64,000 nt of DNA, from positions 1-64,000 of the forward strand of contig NZ_QKWH01000003.1 of NCBI RefSeq assembly GCF_003244315.1, written 5' to 3'. Below, in pieces: positions 1,446-62,872 of the stretch. A program made the translations under genes and the position numbers. This DNA comes from Xylanimonas oleitrophica. GTDB lineage: Bacteria > Actinomycetota > Actinomycetes > Actinomycetales > Cellulomonadaceae. The notes beneath the pieces are model-generated. The model was not told where the DNA came from, did not search any database, and was given only the letters and a program-made list of their open reading frames with translations. Within the stretch, counting starts at the first letter, position 1. Every line of letters begins with the position of its first letter.

Positions 1446-1664
1446 TCAGACGAGCGTGAGCACCCCGAGCACGCCGATGGCGACGGCGAGCAGCAGGGAG
1501 ACGCCGATGAGCACGGCGTGCACCGTGTAGAACCGGGTGGGGCGACCGGCGGTGTCGCGGGAGCGCGGGTCCTTGGCGACCCGCTGCCAGAACCGCGGCC
1601 AGATGAGCAGGTTCCACAGGGCGGCGACGATCAGCAGCACGGACCATGCGACGGGGAGGCTCAC
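1446..1664 (-). CDS. SCO4848-family small membrane protein
   Basis: A 72-residue protein with two predicted membrane segments (about 5-22 and 48-71) around a short basic loop, with the pattern W-LLIWPRFWQRVAKDPRS and RPTRFYTVHAVLIG. This matches my recollection of the small actinobacterial membrane family typified by Streptomyces SCO4848; no function is known. The start is GTG at 1664 (read leftwards); a CATACT element at 1672-1677 lies seven bases upstream, so it is probably leaderless. It is convergent with the redoxin gene and divergent from the Ku gene. Confidence 0.75.
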   Translation of the reverse strand: MSLPVAWSVLLIVAALWNLLIWPRFWQRVAKDPRSRDTAGRPTRFYTVHAVLIGVSLLLAVAIGVLGVLTLV

Positions 1665-1733
1665 GCCCTCCAGTATGGGCGGTGCGCGCCGCGGGCGCTG
1701 GCGTGCCCTCCCAGGTCGGGCGACGATGGGCCG

Positions 1734-2540
1734 ATGCGGGCGATCTGGAAGGGGGCCGTGACGTTCGGCCTCGTCAACGTGCCGGTCAAGCTCTACAGCG
1801 CCACCGAGGACCACGACGTGCCGCTGCACCAGGTGCACGACGCCGACGGCGGTCGTATCCGGTACAAGCGGGTGTGCGAGCTGGACGGCAAGGTGGTGCC
1901 GTACGAGCACATCGACCGCGCCTACGACGACGGTGAGCACACGGTGGTGCTCACCAAGGAGGACCTGTCCTCCCTGCCGGCCGAGCGCGACCGGGAGATC
2001 GAGGTGGTGGAGTTCGTGCCCACCGAGCAGATCGACCCGATCATGCTCGACCGGACGTACTACCTGGAGCCGGACTCGAAGTCGACGAAGGCGTACGTGC
2101 TGCTGCGGCGCACGCTGGAGGAGACGGAGCGCACCGCCGTCGTGAAGTTCGCGCTGCGGCAGCGCACCCGGCTGGCGGCGCTGCGCGTGCGCGGTGACGT
2201 GCTGGTGCTGCAGACGCTCCTGTGGGCGGACGAGGTGCGCGAGGCGGACTTCCCCTCGCTGTCGGACGACGTGAAGATCTCGGCCAAGGAGCTGGCGATG
2301 TCGTCCCAGCTCGTGGAGAGCTTCGAGTCGGACTTCTCACCGGAGCAGTTCGAGGACGAGTACCAGGTCCAGCTGCGCCGTCTGATCGACGCCAAGATCG
2401 AGCGGGGGGAGTCGGTCGACTCCGCCGAGACGTTCGGCGAGGAGGCCGGGGGCGAGGCCGAGGGCGCCGAGGTCATCGACCTCATGGACGCGCTGCGCAA
2501 GAGCGTCGAGGAGGCCAAGGCGAAGCGCAAGAGCGGCTGA
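1734..2540 (+). CDS. ku: Ku protein for non-homologous end joining
   Basis: The 268-residue protein begins MRAIWKGAVTFGLVNVPVKLY, the hallmark N-terminus of bacterial Ku, and continues through the beta-barrel DNA-end ring domain (CELDGKVVPYEHI, RTYYLEPD, WADEVREADFP). Bacterial Ku homodimers thread onto double-strand DNA ends and recruit the polymerase-ligase LigD. Its length is normal for the family and the C-terminal tail is acidic and then lysine-rich (about 225-268). No ligD gene lies next to it in this window, so the partner must be elsewhere. The ATG at 1734 was chosen because the conserved N-terminus starts there; a longer upstream frame exists but lacks homology. Confidence 0.93.
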   Translation: MRAIWKGAVTFGLVNVPVKLYSATEDHDVPLHQVHDADGGRIRYKRVCELDGKVVPYEHIDRAYDDGEHTVVLTKEDLSSLPAERDREIEVVEFVPTEQIDPIMLDRTYYLEPDSKSTKAYVLLRRTLEETERTAVVKFALRQRTRLAALRVRGDVLVLQTLLWADEVREADFPSLSDDVKISAKELAMSSQLVESFESDFSPEQFEDEYQVQLRRLIDAKIERGESVDSAETFGEEAGGEAEGAEVIDLMDALRKSVEEAKAKRKSG

Positions 2541-2632
2541 CCGGTCCCGCCCGACTGCCTGTGCGGACGCGTGCGGCGCGTCGCGCGCGGGTTCGTTGGC
2601 GGCGGCAGCCCTGATCGGCGAAGGTGGGGCCG

Positions 2633-4681
2633 ATGAACCACCAGCCCCACCGCACGCCGCCCCGCTGGGTCCGTTGGACCCTCGTCGGCACCGGCGTGCT
2701 GATCGCCTGCGTCCTGTTCGGCGTCACCACCGCCAAGGCCGACTACTTCTTCGGCCCGCACGCGGCGACGTACGAGATCACCACCGACGCGACGGTCACC
2801 GCCGACCTCGGCCCTCTCGGCACGCTCCAGATCGACTCGCCCGCCGGCCCCCTCGGTGTGGACGTGACGATCAAGGAGATCCCCGCGGACCTCACCGAGA
2901 TCGACCCGGCCACCACGCTCGAGTCGCTGAGCGACGACCTCCAGGGCTACCTGCAGTTCTTCGGCAGCCCGCAGGTCACCGTCGAGATGGTGGTACGCGA
3001 GCTCGTGCAGGACGCCGTGCGCCGCACGCTCGTGGCCCTGCTGGTCGTCGTGCTCGTGGGCGTGGGTGTGCGGTACCTGCTGGGCCGGGAACGGCGGCAG
3101 CAGATCGCGGCCTGGCTGGCCCCGCGCACGTGGGAGGCGACGTCGGGGGTGGTGGCGCTCGCGCTGGTCGCGGGCGTCGTGGCCTCGGACGACCTGGCGC
3201 CACCGGAGCGCGCCGCGCCGACCTCGCCGGTGTTCCAGGGCACCGCGCTCGAGGGTGCGCGCATCACCGGCCGCCTGGCGGGCGTGATCGACACCTACGG
3301 TGCGCAGCTGCTGGGGCTGTACCGGCAGAACGAGGAGTTCTACGAGGGGGCGCGCACGGCGTTGAACGCGGCCTGGGACGGGAGGGCCGCCCTGGAGGGC
3401 GACGGCACGCCGGTGGCTGCCTCGCCGACCGCCTCGCCTCCGACGTCGGACGACGAGGGCGCGTCGGCGCCGGACGCCGAGGGCGGGGGCGCCGGGGCCG
3501 ACGGCGCCCCGGAGACGGATGCGGAGACGGATGCGGAGACGGGCGCGGAGACGGGCGCGGAGGCGGACGCGGAGACGGGGACGGAGGCCGGAACCGGCGC
3601 GGGGGCAGAGCCCGGGACGCAGGACGACGTGCCGGGGGAGCCGACCGGCGGACCCGGTGACGGGCCGGGCACCGACTCCAGTGCCTCGCCGGAGCACGCG
3701 GGGTCTTCCGTGCTGCAGGCGGCGACGGCACCCGAGGACCCGGTCACGTTCCTGGTGATCTCCGACCTGCACTGCAACACGAGCATGACCCCGCTGATCC
3801 GCGACGTCGCGCTGCGGGCCGAGGTGGACGTCATCCTGAACGCGGGGGACACCACGATGAACGGCACGGCCGTGGAGCGGGTGTGCGTGGACTCGTTCGC
3901 CACGGTGCGGCCCGACGGCGTGCCGATGGTGGTGGCCGACGGCAACCACGACTCGATGCTGGTGTCGGACGCCGAGCGTGCGCGCGGCCAGACGGTGCTC
4001 GACGGCTCGGTGGTCGAGGTGGCCGGCGTGCGCATCCTGGGGGACCGTGACCCGCACGAGACCCGGGTGGGCGTGGGGACGACGGCGATCGCCGACGAGG
4101 ACACCGCCGACGTGGGCCGCCGGCTGACGGAGGTGGCGTGCGAGGCCGGCGACGTCGACCTGCTGCTGGTGCACACGCCTGAGATGGGCAACGCGCCCCT
4201 CCACTCGGGCTGCGTGCCCTTCCAGGTGTCGGGGCACACGCACACGCGGTACGAGCCGTTCCCGCTGGGCCGGGGCATCCGGTACGTCAGCGGGTCGACG
4301 GCCGGTGCCGCGTCGGGGCAGCCCACGGTGGGCCCGCTGCGCGGCACCGCGGAGATGACCCTGCTGCGGTTCGACCCTGCCGAGCGCCGCTTCACGCAGT
4401 GGAAGCTGCTGGAGGTGCGCCCGGACGGTTCGGCGGCCGTCAGCGCGTGGCGCGACGTGCCGCGTCCGGCCGTGGTGCGGGCGGCACAGGACACCGAGGG
4501 CGCTGACGGTACGGGCGCCGACGGCGAGGAGGAGCCCAACGGCGCGGGCGCCCCTGACGGCGACGGGGTGCCGGACGGCGCGGGCCTCCCCGAAGGTGAG
4601 CAGGTTCCCGACGGCGGTGGTGCCGGCGAGGACGCCGACGGCGGCGCCGTGGGTGGCGAGGAGCCGCCGGCCTCCCCGTAG
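2633..4681 (+). CDS. Membrane-anchored calcineurin-like metallophosphoesterase
   Basis: A 682-residue protein with an N-terminal membrane segment (about 14-34), an extracytoplasmic-looking beta-rich stretch, two further hydrophobic segments (about 126-150 and 163-185), a low-complexity acidic and threonine-rich linker (about 255-370) and a C-terminal calcineurin-type phosphoesterase domain. The metal-site motifs are complete: SDLHCN (about 375), NAGDTT, DGNHDS (about 435), VHTPE and SGHTHT (about 532). It ends with another disordered acidic tail rich in glycine, aspartate and proline. The substrate is unknown. The start ATG 2633 follows GAAGG; an in-frame GTG at 2624 is less likely. Topology suggests the catalytic domain could be outside the cell, but this is inference. 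Confidence 0.85.
   Translation: MNHQPHRTPPRWVRWTLVGTGVLIACVLFGVTTAKADYFFGPHAATYEITTDATVTADLGPLGTLQIDSPAGPLGVDVTIKEIPADLTEIDPATTLESLSDDLQGYLQFFGSPQVTVEMVVRELVQDAVRRTLVALLVVVLVGVGVRYLLGRERRQQIAAWLAPRTWEATSGVVALALVAGVVASDDLAPPERAAPTSPVFQGTALEGARITGRLAGVIDTYGAQLLGLYRQNEEFYEGARTALNAAWDGRAALEGDGTPVAASPTASPPTSDDEGASAPDAEGGGAGADGAPETDAETDAETGAETGAEADAETGTEAGTGAGAEPGTQDDVPGEPTGGPGDGPGTDSSASPEHAGSSVLQAATAPEDPVTFLVISDLHCNTSMTPLIRDVALRAEVDVILNAGDTTMNGTAVERVCVDSFATVRPDGVPMVVADGNHDSMLVSDAERARGQTVLDGSVVEVAGVRILGDRDPHETRVGVGTTAIADEDTADVGRRLTEVACEAGDVDLLLVHTPEMGNAPLHSGCVPFQVSGHTHTRYEPFPLGRGIRYVSGSTAGAASGQPTVGPLRGTAEMTLLRFDPAERRFTQWKLLEVRPDGSAAVSAWRDVPRPAVVRAAQDTEGADGTGADGEEEPNGAGAPDGDGVPDGAGLPEGEQVPDGGGAGEDADGGAVGGEEPPASP
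3512..3583 (+). repeat. Six-copy 12-bp tandem repeat inside the metallophosphoesterase gene
   Basis: Six tandem units of 12 bases based on GAGACGGATGCG (units 3 and 4 read GAGACGGGCGCG, later ones are more diverged). They encode ETDA/ETGA/EADA repeats in the linker between the membrane segments and the catalytic domain. The unit is a multiple of three, so copy-number change would alter linker length without a frameshift. Confidence 0.85.
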
Positions 4682-4707
4682 CGCGGCCTCCCCGTAGGCT
4701 CTGTGCC

Positions 4708-5430
4708 GTGCCTGCTGCCCCGCGTCGTCGTGCCAACCGGCCGGACCCGGCCGAGCTGACCTCGGTCGCCCAGGACTACCTCAAGGCCGTCTGGTCGGCG
4801 CTCGAGTGGGCGCCGTCGGAGGCGGCGAAGGTCTCGACGGGGCGCCTGGCCGAGCGCCTGGGGGTAGGGCCGTCCACGGTGTCGGAGACGGTGCAGCGCC
4901 TCAGCGAGCAAGGTCTGCTGGCGTACGAGCCGTACCGCGGGGTGGGGCTCACGGAGCTGGGGCGCGGGTACGCGCTGGTCATGGTGCGCCGGCACCGCCT
5001 GATCGAGACGTGGCTGGTGGACCAGCTCGGGTACTCGTGGGACGAGGTGCACGACGAGGCGGAGGAGCTGGAGCACGCGGTCTCCGACCTGCTCGTGGAG
5101 CGCCTGGACGCCCTGCTGGGCCGGCCGGTCCGGGACCCGCACGGTGACCCGATCCCCACGGTGGACGGCAGGGTGCTGCGCCCGGACGCGGTGCCGCTGG
5201 CGGACCTGGTGGCGGGGGAGTCGGGCGTGGTGGCGCGGATCTCGGACGCCGACCCGGGAGACCTGCGGTACCTGGCGGGCCTGGGGGTGGACCTGGACGT
5301 GCGGGTCACGGTGACGGCGGTGCTGCCCCGGCGCGAGGCGGTGACGGTGGCCTGGGACAGGGAGGGAGCTGCGGTGACGGCGGAGCTCGAGCGGCGTGCG
5401 GCGTCGCGGATCTGGGTGTCCAGGGCGTAG
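4708..5430 (+). CDS. DtxR/MntR-family metal-dependent transcriptional regulator
   Basis: A 240-residue DtxR-family repressor. An N-terminal winged helix-turn-helix (about 14-75, including VSTGRLAERLGVGPSTVSETVQRL as positions 46-69) is followed by the metal-binding dimerisation domain (RRHRLIETWL, EVHDEAEELEHAVSD) and a C-terminal FeoA/SH3-like domain (about 160-235). The family represses target genes when loaded with Fe(II) or Mn(II). It is a candidate for binding the two iron boxes near 58 and 61 kb, but a manganese-sensing role is equally possible and an IdeR may exist elsewhere. GTG 4708 follows a TAGGCT element (4695-4700) by seven bases, a leaderless-type start. Confidence 0.9.
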   Translation: MPAAPRRRANRPDPAELTSVAQDYLKAVWSALEWAPSEAAKVSTGRLAERLGVGPSTVSETVQRLSEQGLLAYEPYRGVGLTELGRGYALVMVRRHRLIETWLVDQLGYSWDEVHDEAEELEHAVSDLLVERLDALLGRPVRDPHGDPIPTVDGRVLRPDAVPLADLVAGESGVVARISDADPGDLRYLAGLGVDLDVRVTVTAVLPRREAVTVAWDREGAAVTAELERRAASRIWVSRA

Positions 5431-5518
5431 GGTTCCCACCATCCCGGACGACGTCGACGGCGGTCGTCCGTGGTCGTCCGTCGAAACGATTCGTCCTCGC
5501 TCTTCACCGGAGGACCAG

Positions 5519-6721
5519 TTGACCTCGACCCCGACCCGGGCGGTGGCGCCGCGCACCGGCGCACCGCACGTCGGCCTCGCGCTCTTCGCCCTGTCGCTCG
5601 GTGGCTTCACCATCGGCACCACCGAGTTCGCGACGATGGGCCTGCTGCCGCAGATCGGCGCCGATCTGTCGGTCAGCGACCCCGTCGTCGGGCACGCCAT
5701 CACCGCCTACGCGCTCGGCGTCGTCGTCGGTGCCCCGCTGCTGACCGTCGCCGCCGCGCAGATGAGCCGCAAGCGGCTCCTGCTGGTGCTCATGGGCGCC
5801 TACACCCTGGCCAACCTGCTCTCGGCCGCAGCGCCCAGCATCGGCCTGCTCGTCGCCGGTCGGTTCCTGGCCGGGCTGCCGCACGGGGCCTTCTTCGGGG
5901 TCGGCGCCGCCGTGGGCGCCTCGGTCGCCGGTCCCGGGCGCCGCGGGCACGCGGTGTCGATGATGATGACCGGTCTGACGATCGCGAACGTGGTGGGCGT
6001 GCCCGTCTCCACGTTCGTGGGCCAGCAGCTCGGCTGGCGCGTCGCGTTCCTGCTCATCGGCGTGCTCGGTGCCGCCACCCTCGCCGGGGTGCTGGCGTTC
6101 GTGCCCAAGGACGGGCCGGTCGACTCGTCGATGGCCCAGGAGGTGCGATCGCTGCGCAACGGCCCGCTCTGGATCGGCTTCGCGGCCGGCGCCATCGGGT
6201 TCGGCGGCCTCTTCGCCGTCTACTCCTACGTGGCCCCCACGGTCACCCGTGTCTCCGGGCTCGACGAGCGGCACGTGCCGTGGGTGCTGGCGGTGTTCGG
6301 CGTGGGCATGACCCTCGGCACCCTGCTCGGCGGGCGGCTCGCGGACCGCGACGTGCTGCGCACCGTGATCGGCGGGTTCGTCGCCACGGGGGTGTCGCTG
6401 GTGGCCTTCGCGCTCGTGGCGCACCAGCCGGTGGCGGCCGTGGCCGCGCTGTTCCTGCTGGGGGTCACCTCCCAGGTGCTCGGGCTGGCGATGCAGACGC
6501 GCCTGATGGACCTGTCGCCGCGGGCGCAGTCGCTGGGCGCGGCGCTGTGCCACTCGGCGCTCAACGTGGGCAACGCGTCCGGCGCGTTCTTCGGCGGGCT
6601 CGTCATCGCCGCCGGATGGGGGTACGTGGCCCCCGCCTGGACCGGCGTCCTGCTCACGGCGCTCGGCCTCGGCCTGGTGCTCGTGGCCGGCCGCCAGCGC
6701 GTGGTGCGCGCCGACGCCTGA
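5519..6721 (+). CDS. MFS drug/sugar efflux transporter (DHA1, AraJ/CmlR-like)
   Basis: A 400-residue protein with twelve predicted membrane helices and the major facilitator signature of the arabinose-efflux/chloramphenicol-exporter group: GTTEFATMGLLPQI in the first helix region and GRFLAGLPHGAFFGVG in the fourth. It probably exports small molecules using the proton gradient; the substrate is unknown. I chose TTG 5519 because GGAGGA (5509-5514) lies four bases upstream and the conserved region starts soon after; the frame extends further upstream without conserved features. It lies 88 bases after the DtxR-family gene, so regulation by that protein is possible but unproven. Confidence 0.85.
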   Translation: MTSTPTRAVAPRTGAPHVGLALFALSLGGFTIGTTEFATMGLLPQIGADLSVSDPVVGHAITAYALGVVVGAPLLTVAAAQMSRKRLLLVLMGAYTLANLLSAAAPSIGLLVAGRFLAGLPHGAFFGVGAAVGASVAGPGRRGHAVSMMMTGLTIANVVGVPVSTFVGQQLGWRVAFLLIGVLGAATLAGVLAFVPKDGPVDSSMAQEVRSLRNGPLWIGFAAGAIGFGGLFAVYSYVAPTVTRVSGLDERHVPWVLAVFGVGMTLGTLLGGRLADRDVLRTVIGGFVATGVSLVAFALVAHQPVAAVAALFLLGVTSQVLGLAMQTRLMDLSPRAQSLGAALCHSALNVGNASGAFFGGLVIAAGWGYVAPAWTGVLLTALGLGLVLVAGRQRVVRADA

Positions 6722-6728
6722 CACCGCC

Positions 6729-6747
6729 GGGCGCCCTGTGGGCGCCC
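6729..6747. terminator. Stem-loop after the MFS gene
   Basis: Two copies of the self-complementary octamer GGGCGCCC separated by TGT form an 8-bp hairpin eight bases after the MFS stop codon. There is no T-run, as is usual for terminators in very GC-rich actinobacteria. Confidence 0.5.
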
Positions 6748-6867
6748 GTGCCCCGTGCCCCGTCGCCGTGCGCTCTGGCACCGCGGTGCCAGAACGTGGC
6801 AGAACTAGCGCGGCCGGGTCCCGCTGGTTCTGACACAACTCTCAGGGAAGGGCGATAGGTTGCCGAC

Positions 6868-7503
6868 GTGACCACGGCAGCCCCGGCCCGCGACGCCGTC
6901 GACCCGGCCCTGGAGGGCGTGCGCCCGCTGGGCGACCGCACGCTCGCCGTCTGGCTGCTCGTGCTCGGCGCCGTCGGGTTCGCCGCCTCGTTCACGCTGT
7001 CGGTCGAGCGCTACCTGTCGCTCGTCGAGCCAGGGCACGTGGCCAGCTGCAGCCTCAACGTCTTCGTCGACTGCGGCGCCGCGATGGGCTCTTGGCAGGG
7101 CCGGCTGCTCGGCTTCCCCAACCCCTACCTCGGTGTCGCCGCGTTCGCCGTCGTCGTCACCACCGCGGTGCTGTGGCTCACCGGCTACCGGCCTCCTCGC
7201 TGGTACCGGTTGGCGCTGCTGACCGGCACCGTGCTGGGCGAGCTGCTCGTCGTGTTCCTCATGTACACGAGCTTTCACCAGCTCGTGTCGCTGTGCCTGT
7301 ACTGCATGGCGGTCTGGGTGGTGATGTGGCCCCTCCTGTGGCTCCAGGTGGAGCACGCGCTGCAGACCCGCGCGCTGCCCGCGCCCGCCGGCCTGGTGCG
7401 TGCCCTCGTGGGCAGCCGGGTGATCGTGCTCGTGGTCGGCTACGCCGTGCCCACCGGCTGGCTGCTGCTGACGATGGGCCCCTACCTGGTGCGGTCGTTC
7501 TGA
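6868..7503 (+). CDS. Vitamin K epoxide reductase (VKOR) family membrane protein
   Basis: A 211-residue integral membrane protein with about five helices. It has the VKOR catalytic CxxC pair (LCLYC, Cys143 and Cys146) at the start of a late helix and the extracytoplasmic loop cysteines in the segment [11 protein letters not shown] (about 59-68), followed by [13 protein letters not shown]. In actinobacteria VKOR proteins replace DsbB: they re-oxidise secreted DsbA-like oxidases and pass electrons to menaquinone. No DsbA-like gene lies beside it here. GTG 6868 follows TAGGTT (6856-6861) by six bases with no Shine-Dalgarno sequence, a probable leaderless start. Confidence 0.9.
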
Positions 7504-7579
7504 CGTCGCCCGCCCCGAGCGGGGGTCGCGGGGCGTCGCGCGGAATTCGGCTGGCCACGCCGCACTAGGATGGGTGGTC

Positions 7580-10570
<2,991 letters not shown>

Positions 10571-10663
10571 GGTGGAGGCGCAGCGCAGGGTGGGGGCCGA
10601 GGGACGAGGTCTGCGTCCCGGAGCGGAGCCGCAGCCTCGGACGACCTCGGCTGGGGCCTGATC

Positions 10664-12211
10664 ATGTCCTCTCCGGTCGACGTCGCGTACGAGGGCGCCC
10701 AGCGGGCGTTCCGCAGCCCGACGCTGGCGCTGCTGCACAGGAGGCACGCGCCCCTGGTGGTCACGCTGCTGGGGCAGCTGTTCACGCCTGAGCGGCAGGG
10801 GGTGCCGGTCGCGGACGCCCACGCCGAGGCGGACGAGGCGCTCGCCCACCTGCGGGCGGCAGGCCATGCCGATCTGCCCGAGGGGGCGGCGCGCGACCTG
10901 TGCCGTCAGTGGGTCGCGGAGGGCTGGCTGGTGCGCCAGGTCGTGGATGCGCGCAGCGTCCGCTCGGGCGAGCAGCCGGGGGAGGAGTACCGGCTGACGG
11001 CGCACGCCGTGGAGGCGCTCGAGGTGGCGGCGCGTGCGGGCGGCCCCCGCTCGCGGGTGACGCGGTCGCGGGTGCGTTCGCTGCTGGAGGCCGTGGAGCG
11101 GCTGGCGGACGACGTCGAGCCTGACGTGGCGGCGCGGCGTGCTCGCGTGCGGGGCGAGATCGCCCGGCTGTCGGCGGAGCTGGAGCGCCTGGAGGCGGGG
11201 CAGGTGGAGCCGGCCGACGACGAGCAGCTGCTCGAGGAGGCCGAGCACGTCCTGTTCCTGGTGCGGGAGCTGCCGGCGGACTTCACGCGGGTGGCGGAGT
11301 CGATCCGGGCGCTGCAGCGGCGGGTGGTGCTGTCGTTGCGGCAGGACGACCGCCCGACGGGCGAGGTGCTGGCCGAGTACCTGGAGCAGGCGGAGCACCT
11401 GCTGGAGCAGACGTCGGAGGGTCGGGCGTTCGCGGGGGCGTTGCGGCTGCTGGGTGACGCGGAGCGTCTGGGCACGTTGGCGCGCAGCCTGGAGTCGGTG
11501 CTGCAGCACCCGTTCGCGCAGCGGCTGGCGCCGGCGCAGCGGGCGGAGCTGCGGGGGCTGACGCGGCAGATCGAGCAGGGGTTGGAGGACGTGCTGACGG
11601 CGCAGCGCCGCGCGTCGCACGTGATCGCCACGCAGGTCCGCCACCACGACCCGCTGCGGGACCGGCAGGTGGACGACCTGCTGCGCGACGCGGTGGCGGC
11701 GCTGGCGGCGTGGATGCCTGGTACGCGCAGCGGCCAGCCGGTGGAGGCGTTGCGCCGTCTGCCGCGTGCGGAGGTGGGGCGCCTGCGGGAGACGTTGCAC
11801 GACCTGCGGCCGCCGGTGGCTCCGGAGCCGTTGGCGGAGTGGGACGAGGACGGTACGGACGGTGTGTCGCTGGCGGACGCGCGCCGCTGGGGCGGCCCGC
11901 AGTACGAGGCGCTGCTGGAGCACGCGCGCTCGTTGCGGGGGGCGGACGCGGTCGACGTGGGTGCGGTGTTCGAGGCGGGGCCGCAGGACCTCCGCCGGCC
12001 GGTGGACCTGGTGGGTCTGCTGGAGCTGGCGCGGCCTGCGGAGGACGCGGCGGGCGGTGCAGAGGTGTCGGTGGTGACGGCGGTGCGGCCGGACGGCTCA
12101 CGGCGGCGCTTCGCGTTCGAGCGGGCGGTGCTCCAGGTGCAGGAGCAGGGCGATGCCGACGGCGGGGTCCCGGCGGCTGGGTCGGCGCAGGACGAGGGGG
12201 AGCGAGCATGA
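10664..12211 (+). CDS. jetA: JetA/MksF-like SMC-complex kleisin (DUF3375)
   Basis: A 515-residue protein of the DUF3375 family, the kleisin-like subunit (JetA) of Wadjet plasmid-restriction systems, related to MukF/MksF. Typical segments are [15 protein letters not shown] near the N-terminus, a C-terminal half with [19 protein letters not shown] (353-371), and long charged helices between about 150 and 260. It should bridge the heads of the JetC ATPase and bind JetB. The stop overlaps the start of the next gene (ATGA at 12208-12211), so the three genes are translationally coupled. The 93-base gap from leuS contains a short GGGACG/CGTCCC inverted repeat (10601-10619) but no clear promoter. Composition matches neighbouring core genes. 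Confidence 0.88.
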
Positions 12212-13005
12212 CCACACAGACGACGGGGGGCCAGGCGGGCCCGGTGACGGACGGGTCGGAGGGCGTGCCGGACGCGGGCTTCATCGCACCGGTCCCGGCG
12301 GAGGCTGACCTGCCGGCGCTGTTCCCCGGGGACACGGGCTCGTTGGAGGCGGACGTGCGCCAGGTGCTGGTGCGTCTGCTGCGCCAGCGTTACCTGTCGG
12401 CGGCAGCGCACCCTGGTCCGTGGAAGACGCTGCTGGCACACCAGGCCACGGTGGAGTCGCGCCTGCACGACCTGTTCGTGCACCTGGTGGTCGATCACGA
12501 GCGGGGACTGGCATACAAGCGGCAGGTGCGCAAGGCCGAGGTCGAGGTGCCCGTGCTACTCAAGGACGAGCCGTACTCGCGCGTGGAGACGGTGCTGCTG
12601 GTGCACCTGCGGGCGCTGTTCCAGCGCGAGCAGGGTGCGGGCGAGCAGCAGGCGCGCGTGGACGCGGAGGAGCTGGAGCAGACGGTGCTCAGCTACCTGC
12701 CCGCGGGGGAGACGAACCTGGCGGCGCGGCAGAAGGAGATCGCGGCCGCGGTGGCGCGCCTGGTCCGGGAACGGGTGCTGGCGGAGGAGTCCCAGGGGCG
12801 CTACCGGGTGCTCCCTGTGGTGGAGGTGATCCTGTCGGCGGACCGGCTCGCTGAGCTGGTGACGTGGCTGCGGGACGGGGACACGGCAACGCCCGGTGCC
12901 GAGGAGCCTGGCAGCGGCGACGCCGGCGGCTCGGCCGCGGGCGAGGACGCGGCGGACTCGGCCGGTGCGGCCGACGTCGACGCCGACGAGGAGGACGACC
13001 TGTGA
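12208..13005 (+). CDS. jetB: JetB/MksE-like SMC-complex KITE subunit (DUF4194)
   Basis: A 265-residue DUF4194 protein, the winged-helix (KITE) subunit JetB of Wadjet systems, equivalent to MukE/MksE. Recognisable parts are the [19 protein letters not shown] region (about 50-70), [20 protein letters not shown] (about 113-132) and a conserved pattern [20 protein letters not shown]. The last 45 residues are an acidic alanine-, glycine- and aspartate-rich tail of low complexity. The start ATG 12208 overlaps the jetA stop, and its own stop overlaps the jetC start (GTGA at 13002-13005). I placed the start here although the open frame continues upstream, because the overlap and homology both begin here. 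Confidence 0.87.
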
Positions 13006-16000
13006 GCCTGATGGCCGACACGCTGTTCGGGCTGATCCCCGCGGCCTCGACGGGGCAGCAGTGGGTGGCCCACGAGCTGCAGCTGGTCAACTGGGGCGGC
13101 TACGACGGGCACCACCGGGTCCGGTTCGCGCCGACGGCCACGCTCCTGTCAGGGGCGTCGGGCTCGGGCAAGTCGACCCTGCTGGACGCGTACATCGCGC
13201 TGCTGATGCCGCACACGACGCCGTTCAACGGCGCCTCGAACGGTGGGGTGGTGGGGCGTCCGCGCGGCAAGGACCAGCGCAACGTGGTCTCGTACGCGCG
13301 CGGCAAGATCGACGAGTCCCGCACGGCGGACGGCACGCGGGAGCGGGTGCTGCGCGGCGACGGCCGGGACACGTGGTCGGCGATCGCGATGACGTGGACG
13401 GACCAGTCGGGGACGCGTTTCACGGCCCTGCGCGCCTGGTACGTGCCGGCGGGGGCGCAGCGCACCGAGGACCTGGTGGCGGTGCGCGCCACGGTCGACG
13501 GCGACTTCGCGCTGCGGGACCTGGAGCCGTGCGCGGCGGCCCGGTTCGGCCGGGCGGGGCTGACGGCGCTGGGCCTGACGTGCTTCGACACGGACAAGGA
13601 GTTCGGGGCGCGCCTGCACACCACGCTGGGCATCGGCGCTGCGGGCGGTGGGGCCAAGGCGGTGGCGTTGCTGGGCCGCATCCAGGCGGGTCAGCAGATC
13701 ACCACGGTGGACGCGCTCTACAAGGCGATGGTGCTGGAGGAGCCGGAGACGCTGGCGGTCGCGGACGCCGCCGTCGCCCACTTCGACGACCTGGCGGCGA
13801 CGCGCACGCGCATGGTGACCGCCACGGAGCAGGTGCGTGCGCTCGCGCCGATGCGGCGCCACCGGGCGGCGGTGGACGAGGCGCGCGAGCGTCTCGCGGT
13901 GATCGACGCGCTGGGTTCGTTCGCGGAGCCGGCGTCGGCGGCGAGCCTGTGGCGGCACGAGCGCCGCCTGGGACTGCTGCGCTCGGCGGAGGAGGAGGTG
14001 CGCCGCCAGCACCGGGAGGCCGGTGACGAGGCGGCCGCGTTGAAGGCGGCGCACGCGACGCAGTCGGCGGCGCTCGACGGCGTCCGGCAGGCGATGTGGG
14101 CCGCGGGCGGTGAGCGGGCGGCCGCGGCGGAGCGGGAGCTGGCGGCGGCGCGCACTCGTGAGGCCGAGGTGCGCCGGGCGCGGGTCGTGCTGGACGCCGC
14201 CCTGGAGCGCCTGGGCATGAGCGTCTCGGGCGAGGCCGACCTGGAGCGGCAACGCGCCGCCTCGCGGGCGGCTCTGGCCGACGTCGCCGGCTCGCGGCGT
14301 CGTTCGCTCGACGCGCTGTACGCGGCGAACGACGCCGCGGCCACCGCACGCCGGGAGACGGAGCGCCTGGAGCGGGAGCGGACGTCGCTCGAGCGTCGTC
14401 GCGGCAACGTGCCGGAGGCGTTGCACCGGGCACGCCTGGCGCTGGCCCAGGCGGCGGGTCTCGGCGTGGACGACCTGCCGTTCGTCGCCGAGCTGCTGGA
14501 GGTGCGCACCGAGTTCGAGCACTGGCGCGAGGCGGCGAACCTGGCCCTGGGCGGGTTCGCGACCACGCTGCTGGTGGACTCCGTGCGGCTGGCGGACTTC
14601 CGCGCCGCGATCGACCAGGTGCCGTCCACGGTGCGGCTGCGCTTCGAGGGCGTGCCCGTGGGCCTGCCGGAGCCCGGTGCGCGCGACGAGCGCACCCTGC
14701 CGGGCAGGCTCGACGTCAAGCCCGGCCCGTTCGCCGGGTGGCTGGCCGATCGGCTCGCCGCGGCCTACGACTTCGTGTGCGTGGACGACCCGGCGGACCT
14801 GGCCCGGCACGCGACGTCGGGCACCCGGGCGCTGACCCGGACGGGGCAGACGTCGGACGGGAACCGCGGCGCGCACGGCGGGCACGGGCGCGACAACGTG
14901 CTCGGGTTCACCAACGCCCGCCGGGTGGCGGACCTGGAGCGCCAGCTGGAGCGCTCGCGCGAGGCGGAGCGGCTGGCGGCGGAGCAGCGGGCGGGCGCCG
15001 AGCTGCGTCACGGTGCCCTGGAGGAGCAGACGGCGGCGCACGAGCGCGTGCTGGAGCTGGTGTGGGACCAGGTCGACGTGGCCGCCGCCGCTCAGGAGGT
15101 GGCGCGCTGGGAGGGCGTGCTGGCCGACGTCCAGGGGAGCAACGAGGACCTCACGGCCCTGCAGTCCCAGGCGGACGCGCTGCGGCAGAAGGTCGAGGAC
15201 CTGCACCGCCGGCTGACTCGGGCGGAGGACGCCCGGTCGCGGCTGGGGGAGCGGTGGGCCGAGCTGGGTGACGCGGTCGACGCCGCGCAGCGCGCCATCG
15301 ACGAGGCGACCGACGCCGGCGTCGTCCTGGACGCCGACCACCGCGCCTACCTCGACGAGCTGCTGGAGCGGGCGGGCGAGCGCGACGGCGGCCTGGACGC
15401 CTTCGACGCCGCGCTGGCCGCCGTCGGGCAGCGCCTGGTGTTCGACCACGAGCAGGCCCGCTCCGCCGTGGAAGCCGGGCTCGACGCGCTGCGGTCGGTG
15501 TTCGAGTCGTTCGTGCGGCAGTGGCCCGACCCGAACCTGGGCACGGACCCGGACGGCTCCTACGCCGACTTCGAGCGCGTGCTGAGCACCCTCGAGACGG
15601 AGCGGCTGCACGAGCTCGAGGCGCAGTGGTCGCGCAACCTGGCGCGCATGTCGGGCGACGACCTCACCGCCCTCGACGCCGCGATCAGCAGGTCGCTGCG
15701 CGAGATCACCGAGCGCATCGCCCCTGTCAACGAGATCCTCGCCGAGCTGCCGTTCGCCGACGACGACCACCGCCTGCGGATCGACGCCCGGCCCGTGCAG
15801 TCGGCCATCGTGGCGCGGTTCCGGAGGGATCTGCGGGACGTGCGCACGCTCCTGGCGAGCGACGCCGGAGAGGCCGAGCGCGAGGCGCGGTTCCTGCGCA
15901 TGGAACGGCTCGTCGAGCGGATCCGGCGTACCAGCCCGGACTTCCTCGACCTGGTGGACGTGCGCCGGCACGTGCGCGTCAGCGCGGAGAAGGTGGACCT

Positions 16001-16376
16001 CGAGGGCAACCACGTGGCCCTCTACGACCACATCGGCGAGAAGTCCGGCGGCGAGTCGCAGGAGCTGGTCGCCTTCATCGTCGGTGCGGCGCTGCGGTAC
16101 CAGCTCGGCGACGCCGGGGCCGAGCGGCCGCGGTACGCACCCGTGTTCTTGGACGAGGCGCTGATCAAGGCCGACGCCCGGTTCTCCGGCCGTGCGGTAG
16201 GTGCGTGGCGCGGGCTCGGCTTTCAGCTGGTGATCGGCGCGCCGCTGGACAAGGTGAGCGCGCTGGAGCCGCACGTGGACGCGGAGTACGTCGTCGTCAA
16301 GGATCCGGGCGGCCGTTCCCGGCCGGTGCCGGTGGTCCCGCTCGACGACGACGGCGGCGCCGCTCCGGCGGCGTAG
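13002..16376 (+). CDS. jetC: JetC/MksB-like SMC ATPase
   Basis: A 1124-residue SMC-like ATPase. The N-terminal head has Walker [10 protein letters not shown] (about 50-58), followed by long alpha-helical coiled-coil arms interrupted by a hinge-like region (about 490-640), and a C-terminal head with the ABC signature SGGESQ (about 1015) and Walker B PVFLDEAL (about 1047). This is the JetC/MukB/MksB organisation: the dimer extrudes DNA loops and, in Wadjet, brings circular plasmids to the JetD nuclease for cleavage. Length is normal and both heads look intact. No jetD follows: 155 bases later the glycogen phosphorylase gene starts. It may therefore act as a condensin-like complex or use a distant JetD. 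Confidence 0.9.
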
Positions 16377-16414
16377 CGGACCTGGGCGGGGACTTCGCGG
16401 GGACTTTGCGGGGC

Positions 16415-16450
16415 AGCTCGGGGGCGGCTCGCGGAGCGGGGCGCCGAGCT
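16415..16450. terminator. Candidate terminator hairpin after jetC
   Basis: The arms AGCTCGG (16415-16421) and CCGAGCT (16444-16450) pair perfectly, with a smaller GCTC/GAGC hairpin nested in the loop. It lies about 40 bases after the jetC stop codon. There is no T-run. Confidence 0.4.
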
Positions 16451-16531
16451 GGCACGGGCGCGGCAGGGGCGGCGGTGCGCAGGGCCGAACGGCCCGGTGC
16501 GGTGGCCGGTGGGGACTTGTAGGGTCGATGT

Positions 16532-19006
16532 GTGACCGAGTCGATCCCGCCCATCGCCACCCCGACGCACGACGTCGACGGCTTCGTCCGGCAGTACCTG
16601 CGCGAGCTGACGTACACGCAGGGCACCACGCTCGAGCGCGCGTCGCTCAACGACAAGTACCTGGCGCTCGCGCGCACGGTGCGCTCGTACCTGATGGCGC
16701 GCTGGAACCGCACGATGACGCAGCAGTACCGCAAGCAGTCGCGGTCCGTCGCGTACCTGTCGGCGGAGTACCTGCTGGGTCGCCAGCTCGACAACGCGCT
16801 GATCGCCTCGGACCTGGAGCAGATCGCGGCCGAGGGGCTCGAGCGCCTGGGCCTGTCGCTGGACGAGCTGCGCGAGGCCGAGGTCGAGCCCGGCCTGGGC
16901 AACGGTGGCCTGGGGCGGCTGGCGGCGTGCTTCGTCGACTCGCTCGCCACCATGGACATCCCGGCGATCGGGTACGGCATCCGGTACGAGTACGGGATCT
17001 TCCGGCAGACGTTCGTGGACGGGCGTCAGGTGGAGGAGCCGGACAACTGGCTCGACAACGGCTCGCCCTGGGAGATCGCCCGGCCGGAGCAGGAGGTGGC
17101 GGTCGGGTTCGGTGGGCACACCGAGAAGTACACGGACGACGACGGGGTCGAGCGCAGCCGCTGGGTGCCCGGCTGGTCCGTGCTCGCGGTGCCCTACAAC
17201 TACATGGTCCCGGGCTACCTGAACGGACGGGTCAACACGTTGCGCCTGTGGAGCGCCCGGGCCACCCACGCGTTCGACCTGAAGATCTTCAACTACGGCG
17301 ACTACGCCGAGGCGGTGCGCGCGCAGACGTTCGCGGAGAACATCTCCAAGGTGCTGTACCCGGAGGACTCGACGCCGCAGGGCAAGGAGCTGCGCCTGCA
17401 GCAGCAGTACTTCTTCGTGGCGGCGAGCCTGCGCGACTACATCGACCGGGTGCTGGAGGAGGGCTTCGACCTGCACCGGCTGCCGGAGCGCATCACCTTC
17501 CAGCTCAACGACACCCACCCGGTGATCGCGGTGCCGGAGCTGATGCGCATCCTCGTGGACGAGAAGGGCTTCGGCTGGGACGAGGCGTGGGAGGTGACGC
17601 GGCAGTGCTTCGCGTACACCTGCCACACGCTGCTGCCCGAGGCGCTCGAGGTGTGGCCGGTCGAGCTGGTCGGCCGGCTGCTGCCGCGTCACCTGGAGAT
17701 CATCTACCGCATCAACGAGGAGTTCCTCGGGCAGGTGCGGGAGCGGTCGGGGGGCGACGAGATGCTGGTGCGGCGGATGTCGATCATTGCCGAGCACCCC
17801 GAGCGGGCGGTGCGCATGGCGTTCCTCGCCACCGTCGGGGCAGCCAAGGTCAACGGGGTGGCCGAGCTGCACTCTCAGCTCCTGCGCGACAAGGTGCTGC
17901 ATGACTTCGCGCAGCTGTGGCCGGAGAAGTTCACCAACGTGACGAACGGGGTGACGCCGCGCCGGTTCGTGCGGCTGGCGAACCCGGGGCTGTCGGCGCT
18001 GATCACCGAGGCGATCGGTGACGGCTGGGTGACGGACCTGGAGCGGCTGCGGGAGCTGGAGCCGCTGGCGGACGACGCCGAGTTCCGGCGCCGGTTCCGG
18101 GAGGTCAAGGCGGCAAACAAGGACCGGCTGGTGCGGCTCCTGGCGGCGCGCGACGGGATCGAGATCGACCCGAGCACCATGCTCGACGTCATGGTCAAGC
18201 GCCTGCACGAGTACAAGCGGCAGATGCTGAAGGTGCTGCACGTGGTGACGCTGTACGACCGCATCCGCTCGGGCGAGCTGGACCCGGCCCAGGTCGTGCC
18301 CCGCACGGTGGTGTTCGGGGCGAAGGCGGCGCCGGGCTACAAGATGGCCAAGGAGATCATCGCGCTGATCAACCATGTGGGGGCCGTGGTGAACGCGGAC
18401 CCGGTGGTCTCGCAGGTGCTGCGGGTGGCGTTCCCGGCGAACTACAACGTGACCGTGGCCGAGACGCTGGTCCCCGCCGCCGACCTGTCGGAGCAGATCT
18501 CGCTCGCCGGCAAGGAGGCGTCCGGCACGGGGAACATGAAGTTCGCGCTCAACGGTGCGCTGACGATCGGCACGGACGACGGCGCGAACGTCGAGATCCG
18601 CCAGCTCGTGGGCGACGAGCACTTCTTCCTGTTCGGGCTGACCGAGCCGGAGGCGAGCGCGATCCAGGAGGCCGGGTACCGGCCGGCCGCGTACTACGAG
18701 CAGAACCCGGGGCTGCGCCGTGCGCTCGACCTCGTGGCGTCGGGGGAGTTCTCCGGCGGGGACCGGAGCGTGTTCGAGCCGATCGTCTCGAACCTGCTGT
18801 ACGAGGACCGGTTCATGGTGCTCGCCGACTACCAGTCGTACGTCGAGGCGCAGGACCGGGTGGAGGGGGCGTACCGGGACGAGGACGCGTGGAGCCGCTC
18901 GGCCGTGCTCAACGTGGCCCGCAGCGGCTTCTTCTCCTCCGACCGGTCGATGCGCGACTACCTGGAACGGATCTGGCACGCGGAGGCAGTGCCCGTCGAG
19001 CTCTGA
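16532..19006 (+). CDS. glgP: Glycogen/starch/alpha-glucan phosphorylase
   Basis: An 824-residue family GT35 phosphorylase that releases glucose 1-phosphate from alpha-1,4-glucans. Family features are the N-terminal [15 protein letters not shown] and [16 protein letters not shown] segments, [32 protein letters not shown], and the pyridoxal-phosphate site ASGTGNMKF with the Schiff-base lysine at position 670. Length and motif order match MalP/GlgP of the E. coli type. GTG 16532 follows TAGGGT (16520-16525) by six bases, a leaderless-type start, so it is probably transcribed independently of the jet operon. Choice between glgP and malP by substrate cannot be made from sequence. Confidence 0.96.
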
Positions 19007-19049: not shown

Positions 19050-19072
19050 TTGTAGAGAATGGTTCTCAACAA
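19050..19072. promoter_or_regulatory. Zur box upstream of rpmG2-rpmE2
   Basis: A 23-base palindrome with a single mismatched pair, core GAGAATGGTTCTC (19055-19067), flanked by TTGT and ACAA. It matches the actinobacterial Zur operator type (inverted repeat with A/T-rich arms around a central purine-pyrimidine step). It ends 13 bases before the L33 start codon, so a bound repressor would cover the promoter or start region. Confidence 0.8.
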
Positions 19073-19085
19073 GAAGGGATGCCTG

Positions 19086-19250
19086 ATGGCACGCAACGAG
19101 CTCCGGCCGATCGTCAAGCTCCGGTCGACCGCCGGTACCGGGTTCACCTACGTGACCCGCAAGAACCGCCGCAACGACCCGGACCGCATGGTGATCCGCA
19201 AGTTCGACCCCGTGGTGCGCCGCCACGTCGAGTTCCGAGAGGAGCGCTGA
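19086..19250 (+). CDS. rpmG: Cysteine-free ribosomal protein L33 paralogue
   Basis: A 54-residue L33 of the large ribosomal subunit ([19 protein letters not shown]). Zinc-ribbon L33 proteins carry four cysteines; this one has none, so it is the zinc-independent (C-minus) form that replaces the zinc-binding copy during zinc starvation. A Zur box lies directly upstream. An AAGAAGGGAT Shine-Dalgarno-like stretch precedes ATG 19086; an in-frame ATG at 19059 lies inside the operator and is unlikely to be used. The L31 paralogue follows after three bases. Confidence 0.93.
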
Positions 19251-19253
19251 GCG

Positions 19254-19526
19254 ATGAAGAAGGACGTCCACCCCACGTACGGCCCTGTCGTGTTCCGCGA
19301 CCAGAGCGCCGGCTTCGCCTTCCTGACCCGGTCTACGCTCGCCGGTGAGACGGCGGCCGGCCCCGGCCGGCCCGCTCGCACCGTCGAGTGGGAGGACGGG
19401 AACACCTATCCCGTGGTCGACGTGGAGATCTCGAGCGCGAGCCACCCGTTCTGGACGGGTTCCGCGCGCGTGGTCGACACCGCCGGGCGTGTGGAGAGGT
19501 TCCGGCAGCGTTACGGCAAGCGCTGA
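19254..19526 (+). CDS. rpmE2: Cysteine-free ribosomal protein L31 type B paralogue
   Basis: A 90-residue L31 of type B (YkgM-like): [20 protein letters not shown] at the start, SASHPFWTG in the middle and [13 protein letters not shown] at the end. It has no cysteines, so it lacks the zinc site of type A L31. In other bacteria the C-minus form displaces the zinc form from ribosomes and so frees zinc. It sits in a two-gene operon with the L33 paralogue under a Zur box and is followed by a very strong terminator. Confidence 0.95.
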
Positions 19527-19544
19527 GCGGGTCCTCACCCCCTG

Positions 19545-19580
19545 CGAGAGGCGCGGCACCTTCGGGTGCCGCGCCTCTCG
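19545..19580. terminator. Strong terminator after rpmE2
   Basis: A perfect 16-bp stem (CGAGAGGCGCGGCACC pairing with its complement) closed by a TTCG tetraloop, 18 bases after the L31 stop codon. This is the most stable hairpin in the area and separates the two zinc-regulated operons. Confidence 0.9.
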
Positions 19581-19684
19581 GCGTCTGGGCGGCTCGGCGC
19601 CCGGCTGCCCCGGCGCTCTGGCGTGATGGCGCCTCGACGCCGGGAGGGCTGCGGGCCGAGCGGGCGAGGTTGTCGCGCAGCGGT

Positions 19685-19735
19685 TGAGAAACGTTCTCAT
19701 CTCTGGTTCACTCTCCGAGCGAGAACGATTCTCAC
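19685..19735. promoter_or_regulatory. Two tandem Zur boxes upstream of the aztD-like operon
   Basis: Two inverted repeats: TGAGAAACGTTCTCA (19685-19699) and GAGAACGATTCTC (19721-19733). Both share the GAGAA-N3-TTCTC core of the box in front of rpmG. Their centres are 35 bases apart. The second ends about 34 bases before the ATG at 19767, so the pair should overlap the promoter. Two sites suggest tighter zinc repression than for the rpmG operon. Confidence 0.82.
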
Positions 19736-19766
19736 TCGCACGATCTCTGACGACGGAAAGACGACC

Positions 19767-21155
19767 ATGCACCGCACACGACGCCGCCTCGCGGCTCTCG
19801 CCCTCCCGCTCGCCGCCACGATCGCTCTGGCCGGCTGCGCCGGCGGGACCGGTACCGCCCCCGAGGCCTCCGCCCCGGCGGACGAGCCGGCCGCGCCGCG
19901 CGCCAGCGAGGCGCAGGCACGCACCCCGCGCATCGCGATCACCTACGACGGGGGCATCCGCGTCCTGGACGCGATGAGCCTCGAGCAGGTCGGCGACATC
20001 GAGCTCGAGGGCTTCAACCGCCTCAACCCGGCCGGGGACGGCCGCCACCTGTTCGTCTCGACCGCCGGGGGTTTCCGTCTCCTGGACGCGGGCACCTGGG
20101 CAGAGGCGCACGGCGATCATCACCACTACTGGGTGGCCGGGCCGGTGCTGACCGACCACCTCCACGAGGCCGAGAAGCCCGGCCACGTCGTCGTCCACGA
20201 GGGGCGGACAGCCCTGTTCGACGACGGCACCGGCGACGTCACCGTCCTGGACGCGGCACACCTGGGCGACGACGACGCCGTGGTGCGCGAGCACACCACC
20301 CCGTCCGCGCACCACGGTGTCGCCATCGAGCTGAGCGACCACTCGCTCGTCGTGTCCGAGGGCACCGAGGACGCCCGCACCGGCATCCGAGTGCTGGACG
20401 CCGAGGGGCAGGAGATCGCTGCCAGCGACCAGTGCCCCGGCGTGCACGGCGAAGCCGTGGCGGCCGACGAGGCCGTGGTCATCGGCTGCGAGGACGGCGC
20501 TCTCGTCTACGCGGGCGGCACCATCACCAAGGTGCAGGCGCCCGACGCCTACGGCCGCATCGGCAACCAGGCCGGTACCGAGGCGTCGCCCGTGGTCCTC
20601 GGTGACTACAAGTCCGACCCGGACGCCGACCTCGAGCGTCCCACCCGCGTCTCGCTCATCGACACCCGGGACGCGTCGCTGACCCTGGTGGACCTGCCCG
20701 CCAGCTACACGTTCCGCTCGCTCGCCCGCGGCGACGCCGGCGAGGCGCTCGTGCTCGGCACCGACGGGCAGCTGCACGTCATCGACCCCGAGACCAAGCA
20801 GCTCGTGAAGTCGATCCCGGTGATGGACGCCTGGACCGAGCCCGACGAGTGGCAGGAGCCGCGCCCTGCGGTGCTCGCCCTCGACGGCTCCGTGTATGTG
20901 ACCGACCCGGCCGCCAAGGCGATCCACGCCGTCGACGTCGAGTCCGGCAAGGTGTGGAAGACCGTCACCCTCGACGTCGTGCCCAACGAGCTCAGCGGCG
21001 TCTCCGGCACCGACGAGACGCAGGGTCACGGGCGCAGCGACCACGGTGACGAGGAGCACGCTCACGAGGAGCACGCTCACGACGAGCACGGCCACGACCA
21101 CGGTGACGAGCACGCGCACGAGGGTGACGAGCACGACCACGACCACGAGGGCTGA
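19767..21155 (+). CDS. aztD: AztD-like zinc chaperone lipoprotein with His-rich tail
   Basis: A 462-residue secreted lipoprotein: signal peptide with lipobox LAGC (Cys24), then a repeated beta-propeller-like fold with recurring xVLDA/xLVxxG blades, and a C-terminal tail packed with His, Asp and Glu (for example [15 protein letters not shown]). A HGDHHHYW stretch (about residue 113) may also bind metal. The overall pattern resembles AztD, the periplasmic zinc metallochaperone that passes Zn to the AztC solute-binding protein; that assignment rests on memory of the family. Two Zur boxes precede it and the ribosomal protein genes follow after four bases, so it belongs to the zinc-starvation response. 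No aztABC transporter is adjacent. Confidence 0.72.
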
Positions 21156-21159
21156 CGCG

Positions 21160-21465
21160 ATGGCGAAGAAGTCGAAGATCGCGGCCCAGCAGCGCCGGCA
21201 GGCCGTCGTGGCGCGGTACGCCGAGCGGCGTGCGCACCTCAAGCGCGTGATCGCCTCGCCGGCCTCGAGCGACGAGGAACGCGCCGTCGCGACGCTGGAG
21301 CTCCGGCGCCAGCCCCGCGACGCGAGCCGGGTGCGGCTGCGCAACCGCGACGCCGTCGACGGCCGCCCGCGGGCCCACCTGCGCAGGTTCGGGCTCTCCC
21401 GGATCCGCCTGCGCGAGATGGCGCTGCGCGGCGAGCTGCCCGGCGTGACCAAGTCCAGCTGGTGA
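21160..21465 (+). CDS. rpsN: Cysteine-free ribosomal protein S14 paralogue
   Basis: A 101-residue S14 of the long type ([20 protein letters not shown] ... [20 protein letters not shown] ... LPGVTKSSW). It lacks cysteines, in contrast to the short zinc-ribbon S14 that is common in Gram-positives. It starts four bases after the aztD-like stop codon, so it should be co-transcribed and share Zur control. It is the only small-subunit member of this zinc-sparing set. Confidence 0.95.
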
Positions 21466-61514: not shown

Positions 61515-61919
61515 TCAGGCCTCGCGGCAGTCGCGGCAGGTGCCCCACAGCTCGACAGTGTGCTCGATCTCGCCGAACCCGTGCTCCGCCCCCACCATCG
61601 CGGCCCATGCCTCCACGGTGGGGCCGTCGATCTCGACCGTGCGGCCGCACCGCCGGCACACGAGGTGGTGGTGGTGCTCGCGTCGAGCGCAGCGCCGGTA
61701 GAGGCTCTCGCCGTCCTCCGTGCGCAGCACGTCGACCTCGCCGCCGTCCACCAGCGCCTGCAGCGTCCGGTACACGGTCGCGAGCCCCACGGCGTCGCCC
61801 CGGGTGCGGAGCGTCTCGTGGAGCTGCTGGGCGCTGCGGAACTCGTCGGTGCCCTCGAGGGCGTCGGCGACGGCGGCACGCTGCCGGGTCATGCGCACCG
61901 GTGCGCTGGACGTGCTCAT
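61515..61919 (-). CDS. zur: Fur-family regulator, probably zinc uptake regulator Zur
   Basis: A 134-residue Fur-family protein: MTRQRAAVADALEGTDEFRS, winged helix with LATVYRTLQALVDGGEVDVL, the metal motif REHHHHLVCRRCGRTVEIDG (about 80-99) and a second Cys pair CRDC at the end. Fur proteins use Zn to bind DNA; its location directly behind znuB and the Zur boxes at 19 kb indicate Zur. ATG 61919 overlaps the znuB stop by four bases, so it is translated with the transporter. It probably binds the three boxes at 19 kb. Confidence 0.92.
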   Translation of the reverse strand: MSTSSAPVRMTRQRAAVADALEGTDEFRSAQQLHETLRTRGDAVGLATVYRTLQALVDGGEVDVLRTEDGESLYRRCARREHHHHLVCRRCGRTVEIDGPTVEAWAAMVGAEHGFGEIEHTVELWGTCRDCREA

Positions 61920-62872
61920 CGTTCGCACTCCTTCCCGCCGGTGGCGCCACCGGCCAGGGCCGGGGCCGGCGCGACCGCGACGTCGTCGGGGATGTCCGGG
62001 TGGGGGTCGTGCGGGGGCCTGCGCCGGGCCAGCAGAGGCCGGGCCAGCGCCGCCACGACGTACACCCCGATGGCGAGGACCACGATCGTGGCACCCGGCG
62101 ACACATTCTGCCAGTACGTGATGCTCAGGCCGGCGACGCACACCACCACGCCCACCACCGACGCGAGCGTCATCGTGCGCCGGAACGCGTGGGTGAGCTG
62201 CTGCGCCACGGCGACCGGCACGATCATCAGCGCGGACACCAGCAGCAGCCCCACCACGCGCATCGCCACCGTCACGGTCAGCGCCGCCACCACGGCCACC
62301 GCCATGTTCAGCAGCCACACCGGCAGCCCGGACGCCACCGCGAACTCCTCGTCGTGGCTCACCGCGAACAGCGCCGTGCGCAGGCCCAGGCCGATCGCGA
62401 GGATCACCACGGACAGCACCACGGTCAGCACCAGGTCCGTGGTGGTGACCGTGGAGATCGAGCCGAACAGGTAGGACATCAGGTTGCCCGAGGACCCGCC
62501 CGCGATGCCGATGAGCAGCACGCCGCCCGCGATGCCCCCGTAGAACATCAGCGCCAGCGCCAGGTCGCCCGACGTGCGGCCGCGGCGGCGCACCACCTCG
62601 ATCAGCACCGAGCCCACGACGGCGGCCACCACCGCGCCGGGGATCGCCAGCGCGTCGTTGGGGGACACGCCCACCGCCGCCCCCACGAGCCAGCCGAGGG
62701 CCACGCCGGTCAGCGCCACGTGACCGATGCCGTCGCCCAGCAGGGACAGGCGCCGCTGCACCAGGTAGGTGCCCACGACGGGTGCGGCCGCACCGACCAG
62801 CAGCGCCGCCACGAGGGCGCGCTGCATGAACGGGTCGGTCAGCATGAGGGTGATCTCGTCGAAGAAGCTCAT
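61916..62872 (-). CDS. znuB: Zinc ABC transporter permease (ZnuB-like)
   Basis: A 318-residue ABC-3 family metal permease with about nine helices: FMQRALVAALLVGAAAPVVG, VQRRLSLLGDGIGHVALTGV and VVGLLLVSALMIVPVAVAQQ. It imports zinc (possibly manganese). Its cytoplasmic C-terminus has HDPHPDIPDD, a small cluster of possible metal ligands. ATG 62872 overlaps the znuC stop by four bases. Confidence 0.93.
   Translation of the reverse strand: MSFFDEITLMLTDPFMQRALVAALLVGAAAPVVGTYLVQRRLSLLGDGIGHVALTGVALGWLVGAAVGVSPNDALAIPGAVVAAVVGSVLIEVVRRRGRTSGDLALALMFYGGIAGGVLLIGIAGGSSGNLMSYLFGSISTVTTTDLVLTVVLSVVILAIGLGLRTALFAVSHDEEFAVASGLPVWLLNMAVAVVAALTVTVAMRVVGLLLVSALMIVPVAVAQQLTHAFRRTMTLASVVGVVVCVAGLSITYWQNVSPGATIVVLAIGVYVVAALARPLLARRRPPHDPHPDIPDDVAVAPAPALAGGATGGKECER

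Follow-up and report, generated by a model that had tools for sequence, protein, structure and literature searches.

The window, a stretch of 64,000 nucleotides from Xylanimonas oleitrophica, contains the three core subunits (SMC, kleisin and KITE) of a type I Wadjet system, which has probably lost the nuclease JetD and been kept as a nuclease-free accessory condensin of the MksBEF type, to judge from its conservation and from analogy with characterized complexes. Comparison with other members of the host's family shows that JetD appears to have been lost repeatedly while the motor was kept. Loss of the nuclease from a motor that is itself kept and conserved implies that this motor most likely has a second, non-cutting job, and by analogy chromosome folding or a similar task would be the most likely one.

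The host genome (G000; 3.49 Mb in 28 contigs, 99.98% complete, the window lying on contig C22) carries the genes in the order leuS-jetA-jetB-jetC-glgP, all on the plus strand (Table 1). PADLOC recovered all three type I core genes in one operon (JetA1, E 6.8e-186; JetB1, E 4e-94; JetC1, E 0), and the products also matched the JetA, JetB and JetC chains of Wadjet I in the PDB (E 3.9e-18, 4.8e-06 and 3.3e-48, respectively). The three frames are open and carry the expected domains, in agreement with the earlier note, which had described three intact SMC-complex genes, and the window JetC displays Walker A, the SGGE signature and the LDEA Walker B. Coupling by 4-base overlaps, as described in the same note, was found between jetA and jetB (ATGA, 12208-12211). 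Between jetB and jetC, the overlap (GTGA, 13002-13005) exists only if jetC starts at GTG 13002; the alternative start at ATG 13011, which is residue 4, where the alignments of most relatives begin, leaves a gap of 5 bases.

Table 1. Features of the jetABC locus in the window.
Feature	Coordinates	Strand	Evidence or remark
leuS, leucyl-tRNA synthetase	7574..10570	+	Pfam tRNA-synt_1_2 etc.; upstream neighbour conserved at jetABC site
jetA (mksF-like), kleisin, DUF3375, 515 aa	10664..12211	+	PF11855, E 1.3e-116
jetB (mksE-like), KITE subunit, DUF4194, 265 aa	12208..13005	+	PF13835, E 3.1e-38
jetC (mksB-like), SMC ATPase, 1124 aa	13002 or 13011..16376	+	AAA_29 and SbcC_Walker_B
jetC-glgP interval, where jetD would sit	16377..16531	.	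155 bases; JetD profiles, no remnant
glgP, glycogen phosphorylase	16532..19006	+	PF00343; frequent downstream neighbour

Only 93 bases separate leuS from jetA, and the position of the operon just behind leuS on the same strand suggests housekeeping expression. A promoter and terminator scan of the locus gave no match, a result that is uninformative at such GC content. The GC content per kilobase is 0.73-0.78 across the operon and 0.69-0.79 around it, which confirms that the composition resembles that of the surroundings. Also, distances between LeuS and JetC were correlated over 35 leuS-linked loci (r 0.71, reached in 0 of 2000 permutations), which indicates that the leuS/jetABC site is largely inherited vertically. 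Recent acquisition of the window jetABC was rejected on these two grounds. Elsewhere in the window, small ribosomal-protein-like frames with a His-rich AztD-like lipoprotein behind glgP (19059-21465) and a Fur-like regulator with ABC transporter genes (61515-63708) together form what we take to be a zinc-starvation set.

A complete type I Wadjet has a JetD Toprim nuclease encoded with its core, and none was found at the window; kleisin, KITE and SMC genes without an adjoining MksG/JetD are instead the arrangement of MksBEF/MukBEF-like complexes. The earlier note had reported jetD to be missing between jetC and the glycogen phosphorylase gene and the interval to be devoid of any remnant, and both statements are borne out. 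Two JetD profiles detected nothing in the 2.5 kb behind the window jetC with filters off. A 33-bit JetD match in the window was false, as it came from a profile containing wrong-strand frames and disappeared with a cleaned profile of 18 JetDs. The genome-wide HMM check recommended in that note was run with JetD_C (PF09983) and DUF3322 (PF11795); it gave no match in the whole G000 genome, with C. glutamicum as a positive control. Profile A1, made of eight actinobacterial JetDs, likewise found none at E 1 in G000, in a search run without a control genome.

In the Pfam search, JetA (DUF3375) was present in 122 of the 150 genomes of the host's family and had no match in 28. JetD_C was present in 22, all of them among the 122, which leaves 100 genomes with JetA and no JetD; JetD-less is thus the common form of JetABC in this family. 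Across the phylum, JetA passed the cut-off in at least 16 of 396 sampled genomes (first three candidates per genome scored), with JetD in 9 of these 16 and none in 7, G000 included. JetA is therefore frequent in the host's family and sporadic elsewhere in the phylum. In six genomes a JetABC without JetD occurs apart from a Wadjet that is complete. In five of them (G144, G083, G102, G024, G015) the JetD-less set is leuS-linked and a distant JetABC with JetD lies elsewhere; in the sixth (G147) a complete distant Wadjet coexists with a JetD-less set outside leuS. Since these cells have an armed set as well, the disarmed one is hard to dismiss as a defective leftover copy. Two further groups of JetD-less JetABC, of 14 loci (among them L108, L112, L120 and L123) and 18 loci (among them L107, L115, L128, L142, L156 and L162), were set aside as distant, their JetC being 26-34% identical; each has its own recurrent neighbours, and some genomes have two JetD-less sets.

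The history of JetD was read from a FastTree phylogeny of JetC comprising 122 type I loci and three outgroup Wadjets. Duplicates (L105, L189, L176), rows below 700 bits and loci with JetC shorter than 900 aa were left out of the counts; the short rows were L220 (scaffold gap), L094 and L099 (contig ends), and L126 and L223 (jetC cut inside the contig), whereas L219, also with a short JetC, is a row of the distant groups. JetD was absent from 86 of the 122 loci and present in 36. At least 18 state changes are needed on this tree, or 33 losses if JetD was never regained, and JetD-less clades of 17, 6 and 4 rows lie deep within it. A 32-row IQ-TREE analysis under a mixture model, on a chosen subset of the 125 rows, gave the same nesting. 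In it the window locus has that of Puerhibacterium puerhi (L051) as its sister, and JetD is missing from both. JetC is 87-89% identical within sister pairs of which one member has JetD and the other lacks it (L052/L130, L214/L152, L167/L106), and scraps of jetD are found directly behind jetC at four loci (L080, L082, L086 and, most weakly, L079).

The earlier note had named, as something that would speak against its reading, related strains carrying jetD at this very position. Two relatives do carry it there: Xylanimicrobium pachnodae (L052) has leuS-jetABCD, its sister L130 having leuS-jetABC-glgP without jetD, and L202 of genome G140 (1574-14470) has leuS-jetABCD-glgP, exactly the site of the window plus jetD. 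Loss of JetD is therefore part of the history of its absence, but the core survived this loss and is conserved. In the 36 loci with JetD, distances of JetD and JetC are strongly correlated (r 0.967, 0 of 2000 permutations), a pattern that joint descent of JetD and its core would produce. However, L202 has a LeuS 91% identical to that of its genus mate L210, yet its JetC is nearest to that of the window (64%), so that the jet operon looks swapped in at the leuS/glgP site; gain of jetD may have occurred at some sites. The deepest in-group clades of JetC all lack JetD, support for an armed ancestor comes from the distant outgroup only, and the armed and JetD-less states of the root are one step apart at equal costs.

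The disarmed operons bear the marks of constraint. In all 86 JetD-less rows, JetA, JetB and JetC are each encoded by a long open frame, a count best read as 86 of 91, since five further JetD-less loci had been dropped for short JetC. One of the 86 (L218, from an assembly 81% complete) has frameshifts in JetA and JetC, and also in LeuS. All three JetC motifs were found in 83 of the 86 with a strict pattern, and Walker A in all of them in a whole-protein scan. In 18 JetD-less pairs, dN/dS (NG86) was 0.059-0.192 for JetC, 0.069-0.252 for JetA and 0.020-0.412 for JetB; LeuS, available in nine of these pairs, gave 0.067-0.234, to which JetC is close. Six pairs with JetD gave 0.145-0.357 for JetC and 0.147-0.529 for JetD. 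The comparison between the window and Puerhibacterium gave higher values (JetA 0.337, JetB 0.422, JetC 0.274, LeuS 0.257). The pairs were hand-picked among close relatives and NG86 is rough at 74% GC, but all values are well below 1. These ratios indicate that the JetD-less operons are under purifying selection.

Among the options left by the earlier note, an orphan MksFEB-like machine is the best fit to the frames, the ATPase motifs, the selection, the housekeeping location and the presence in most genomes of the family. The same genome also encodes ScpA and a 1232-aa Smc, so that JetABC would be an accessory complex, and its reading as a replacement of Smc-ScpAB was rejected. In the mechanism that we propose, JetA and JetB would bridge dimers of JetC, the complex would still be loaded onto DNA and use ATP for loop extrusion, and without JetD the arrival at the end of a circle would no longer trigger cutting. 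The motor could then work on the chromosome, in compaction, segregation or loop turnover, alongside Smc-ScpAB. Once JetD is gone, the cell would no longer be in danger of cutting its own DNA, and what had been a defence motor could pass into the core set of chromosome genes. Several observations run against a condensin. MksB of Corynebacterium glutamicum showed neither an effect on chromosome folding nor chromosomal loading sites in the sections of PMC7083940 used here, though MksG is present in that species. JetABC is dispensable for most actinobacteria, given its sporadic presence in the phylum sample, and the dN/dS values between the window and Puerhibacterium are the higher ones given above. 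The N-terminal block of JetB that most JetD-less rows retain (see below) would also count against it if this block is where JetD binds.

A different non-cutting job is the main rival. JetABC could recognise small circles by complete extrusion and hold, silence or mis-segregate them without cutting, a possibility to which we give a modest chance. Smc5/6 acts likewise on viral circles. The core is by its matches the sensor of a type I Wadjet, and a passage of PMC10586767 assigns the sensing role to JetABC. Also, an N-terminal block of JetB (F[IV]...F.GD.G.L, by pattern) is kept in most JetD-less rows (73/86, against 35/36 in rows with JetD), and 8 of the 13 JetD-less rows missing it are start-call artefacts in which the block is visible. 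However, deletion of mksG in C. glutamicum had about the same effect on plasmid pBHK18 as loss of MksB or MksF, according to the results excerpted from PMC10123090, which means that the core alone is insufficient in that species. All four subunits were needed in Bacillus subtilis as well, as stated in part of PMC10586767.

It is less probable still, and in our opinion doubtful, that the place of JetD has been taken in trans by the product of a distant gene, whether a nuclease or another effector. Such a replacement would fit the selection on JetABC and the retention of the JetB block. An IFDR motif at the N-terminus of JetB cross-links to JetD (PMC10586767, in part) and may or may not coincide with the conserved block; if the block is indeed the JetD contact, its retention hints at a partner that is still bound. 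Residues invariant in rows with JetD and lost in deep JetD-less rows form long lists in all three subunits, and these may mark clades only. The earlier note had considered a distant or unrelated nuclease. No nuclease was found next door and no JetD homologue in the genome; an unrelated protein acting in trans is conceivable. No nuclease-like neighbour recurred across the leuS-linked and the 50 non-leuS JetD-less loci. A LeuS family gene is upstream of jetABC in all 36 leuS-linked JetD-less loci (27 of the deep group and 9 others), a linkage that defines these loci and makes leuS their constant neighbour, and glgP is downstream in 13 of the 27 and 7 of the 9. Outside leuS, the commonest neighbour family occurred at 12 of 50 loci. 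Representative non-leuS neighbours are presumably a permease, an ABC ATPase and a DnaE-type polymerase, of housekeeping look.

That a recent deletion of jetD has left a decaying Wadjet, with jetABC on its way out, is very improbable, and the suggestion of a decayed system in the earlier note is not supported: the jetD scraps at four loci, the 28 family genomes without a JetA match and the cut jetC of L126 and L223 would fit it, but the frames are long and open in all 86 tree rows, dN/dS is far below 1, JetD-less clades lie deep in the tree, and L126 and L223 both come from incomplete assemblies (91% and 77%). In L126, a draft of the Puerhibacterium genus group, jetC is cut after residue 372 (7000-8330), by misassembly or rearrangement, and is joined to a frame that we take to be MotB-like.

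Members of the Wadjet group without JetD are already known (PMC7617805 and PMC10586767, both in part). We found no description of repeated, family-wide loss of JetD in the literature, although the supplementary data of PMC7617805, described in that article as listing operons with and without MksG, may include these operons. Disarmed many times in one actinobacterial family, near-core in most of its genomes, often behind leuS and sometimes beside an armed Wadjet, these loci have in our estimation about an even chance of representing a transition from defence complex to chromosome condensin that nature has repeated several times, or else a set of Wadjet cores that defend without a nuclease. The sister pairs with and without JetD allow a direct test of the proposed step from an armed system to MksBEF. 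Also, JetABC alone should not be called plasmid defence by annotation tools.

Compared with known systems, the window has the gene order of type I Wadjet (JetABCD / MksBEFG / EptABCD), and its three subunits match the models and solved chains of that system, which is thought to extrude DNA and to cut it by JetD once a small circle is recognised (PMC10586767, in part). It differs by the absence of JetD at the locus and of any recognised JetD in the genome. MksBEFG of C. glutamicum is likewise an actinobacterial JetABC core found alongside Smc-ScpAB; unlike the window, it has MksG, and it is described in the available excerpts as acting on plasmids and not in chromosome folding. MukBEF of Escherichia coli is, like the window, a member of the Wadjet group without MksG/JetD, and it folds the chromosome (PMC7617805, in part), a role that would apply to the window by analogy. 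MukBEF replaced Smc-ScpAB, as stated in part of PMC10586767, whereas the window genome keeps Smc and ScpA. MksBEF of Pseudomonas aeruginosa belongs to another phylum, the nearest relatives of the window being actinobacterial type I sets, some of them with JetD. Like the window, it is an Mks core without nuclease alongside Smc-ScpAB; passages of PMC10586767 regard it as JetABCD minus JetD and propose its origin from an armed Wadjet that lost JetD. It is the example in which action of an Mks core on the chromosome without JetD has been tested.
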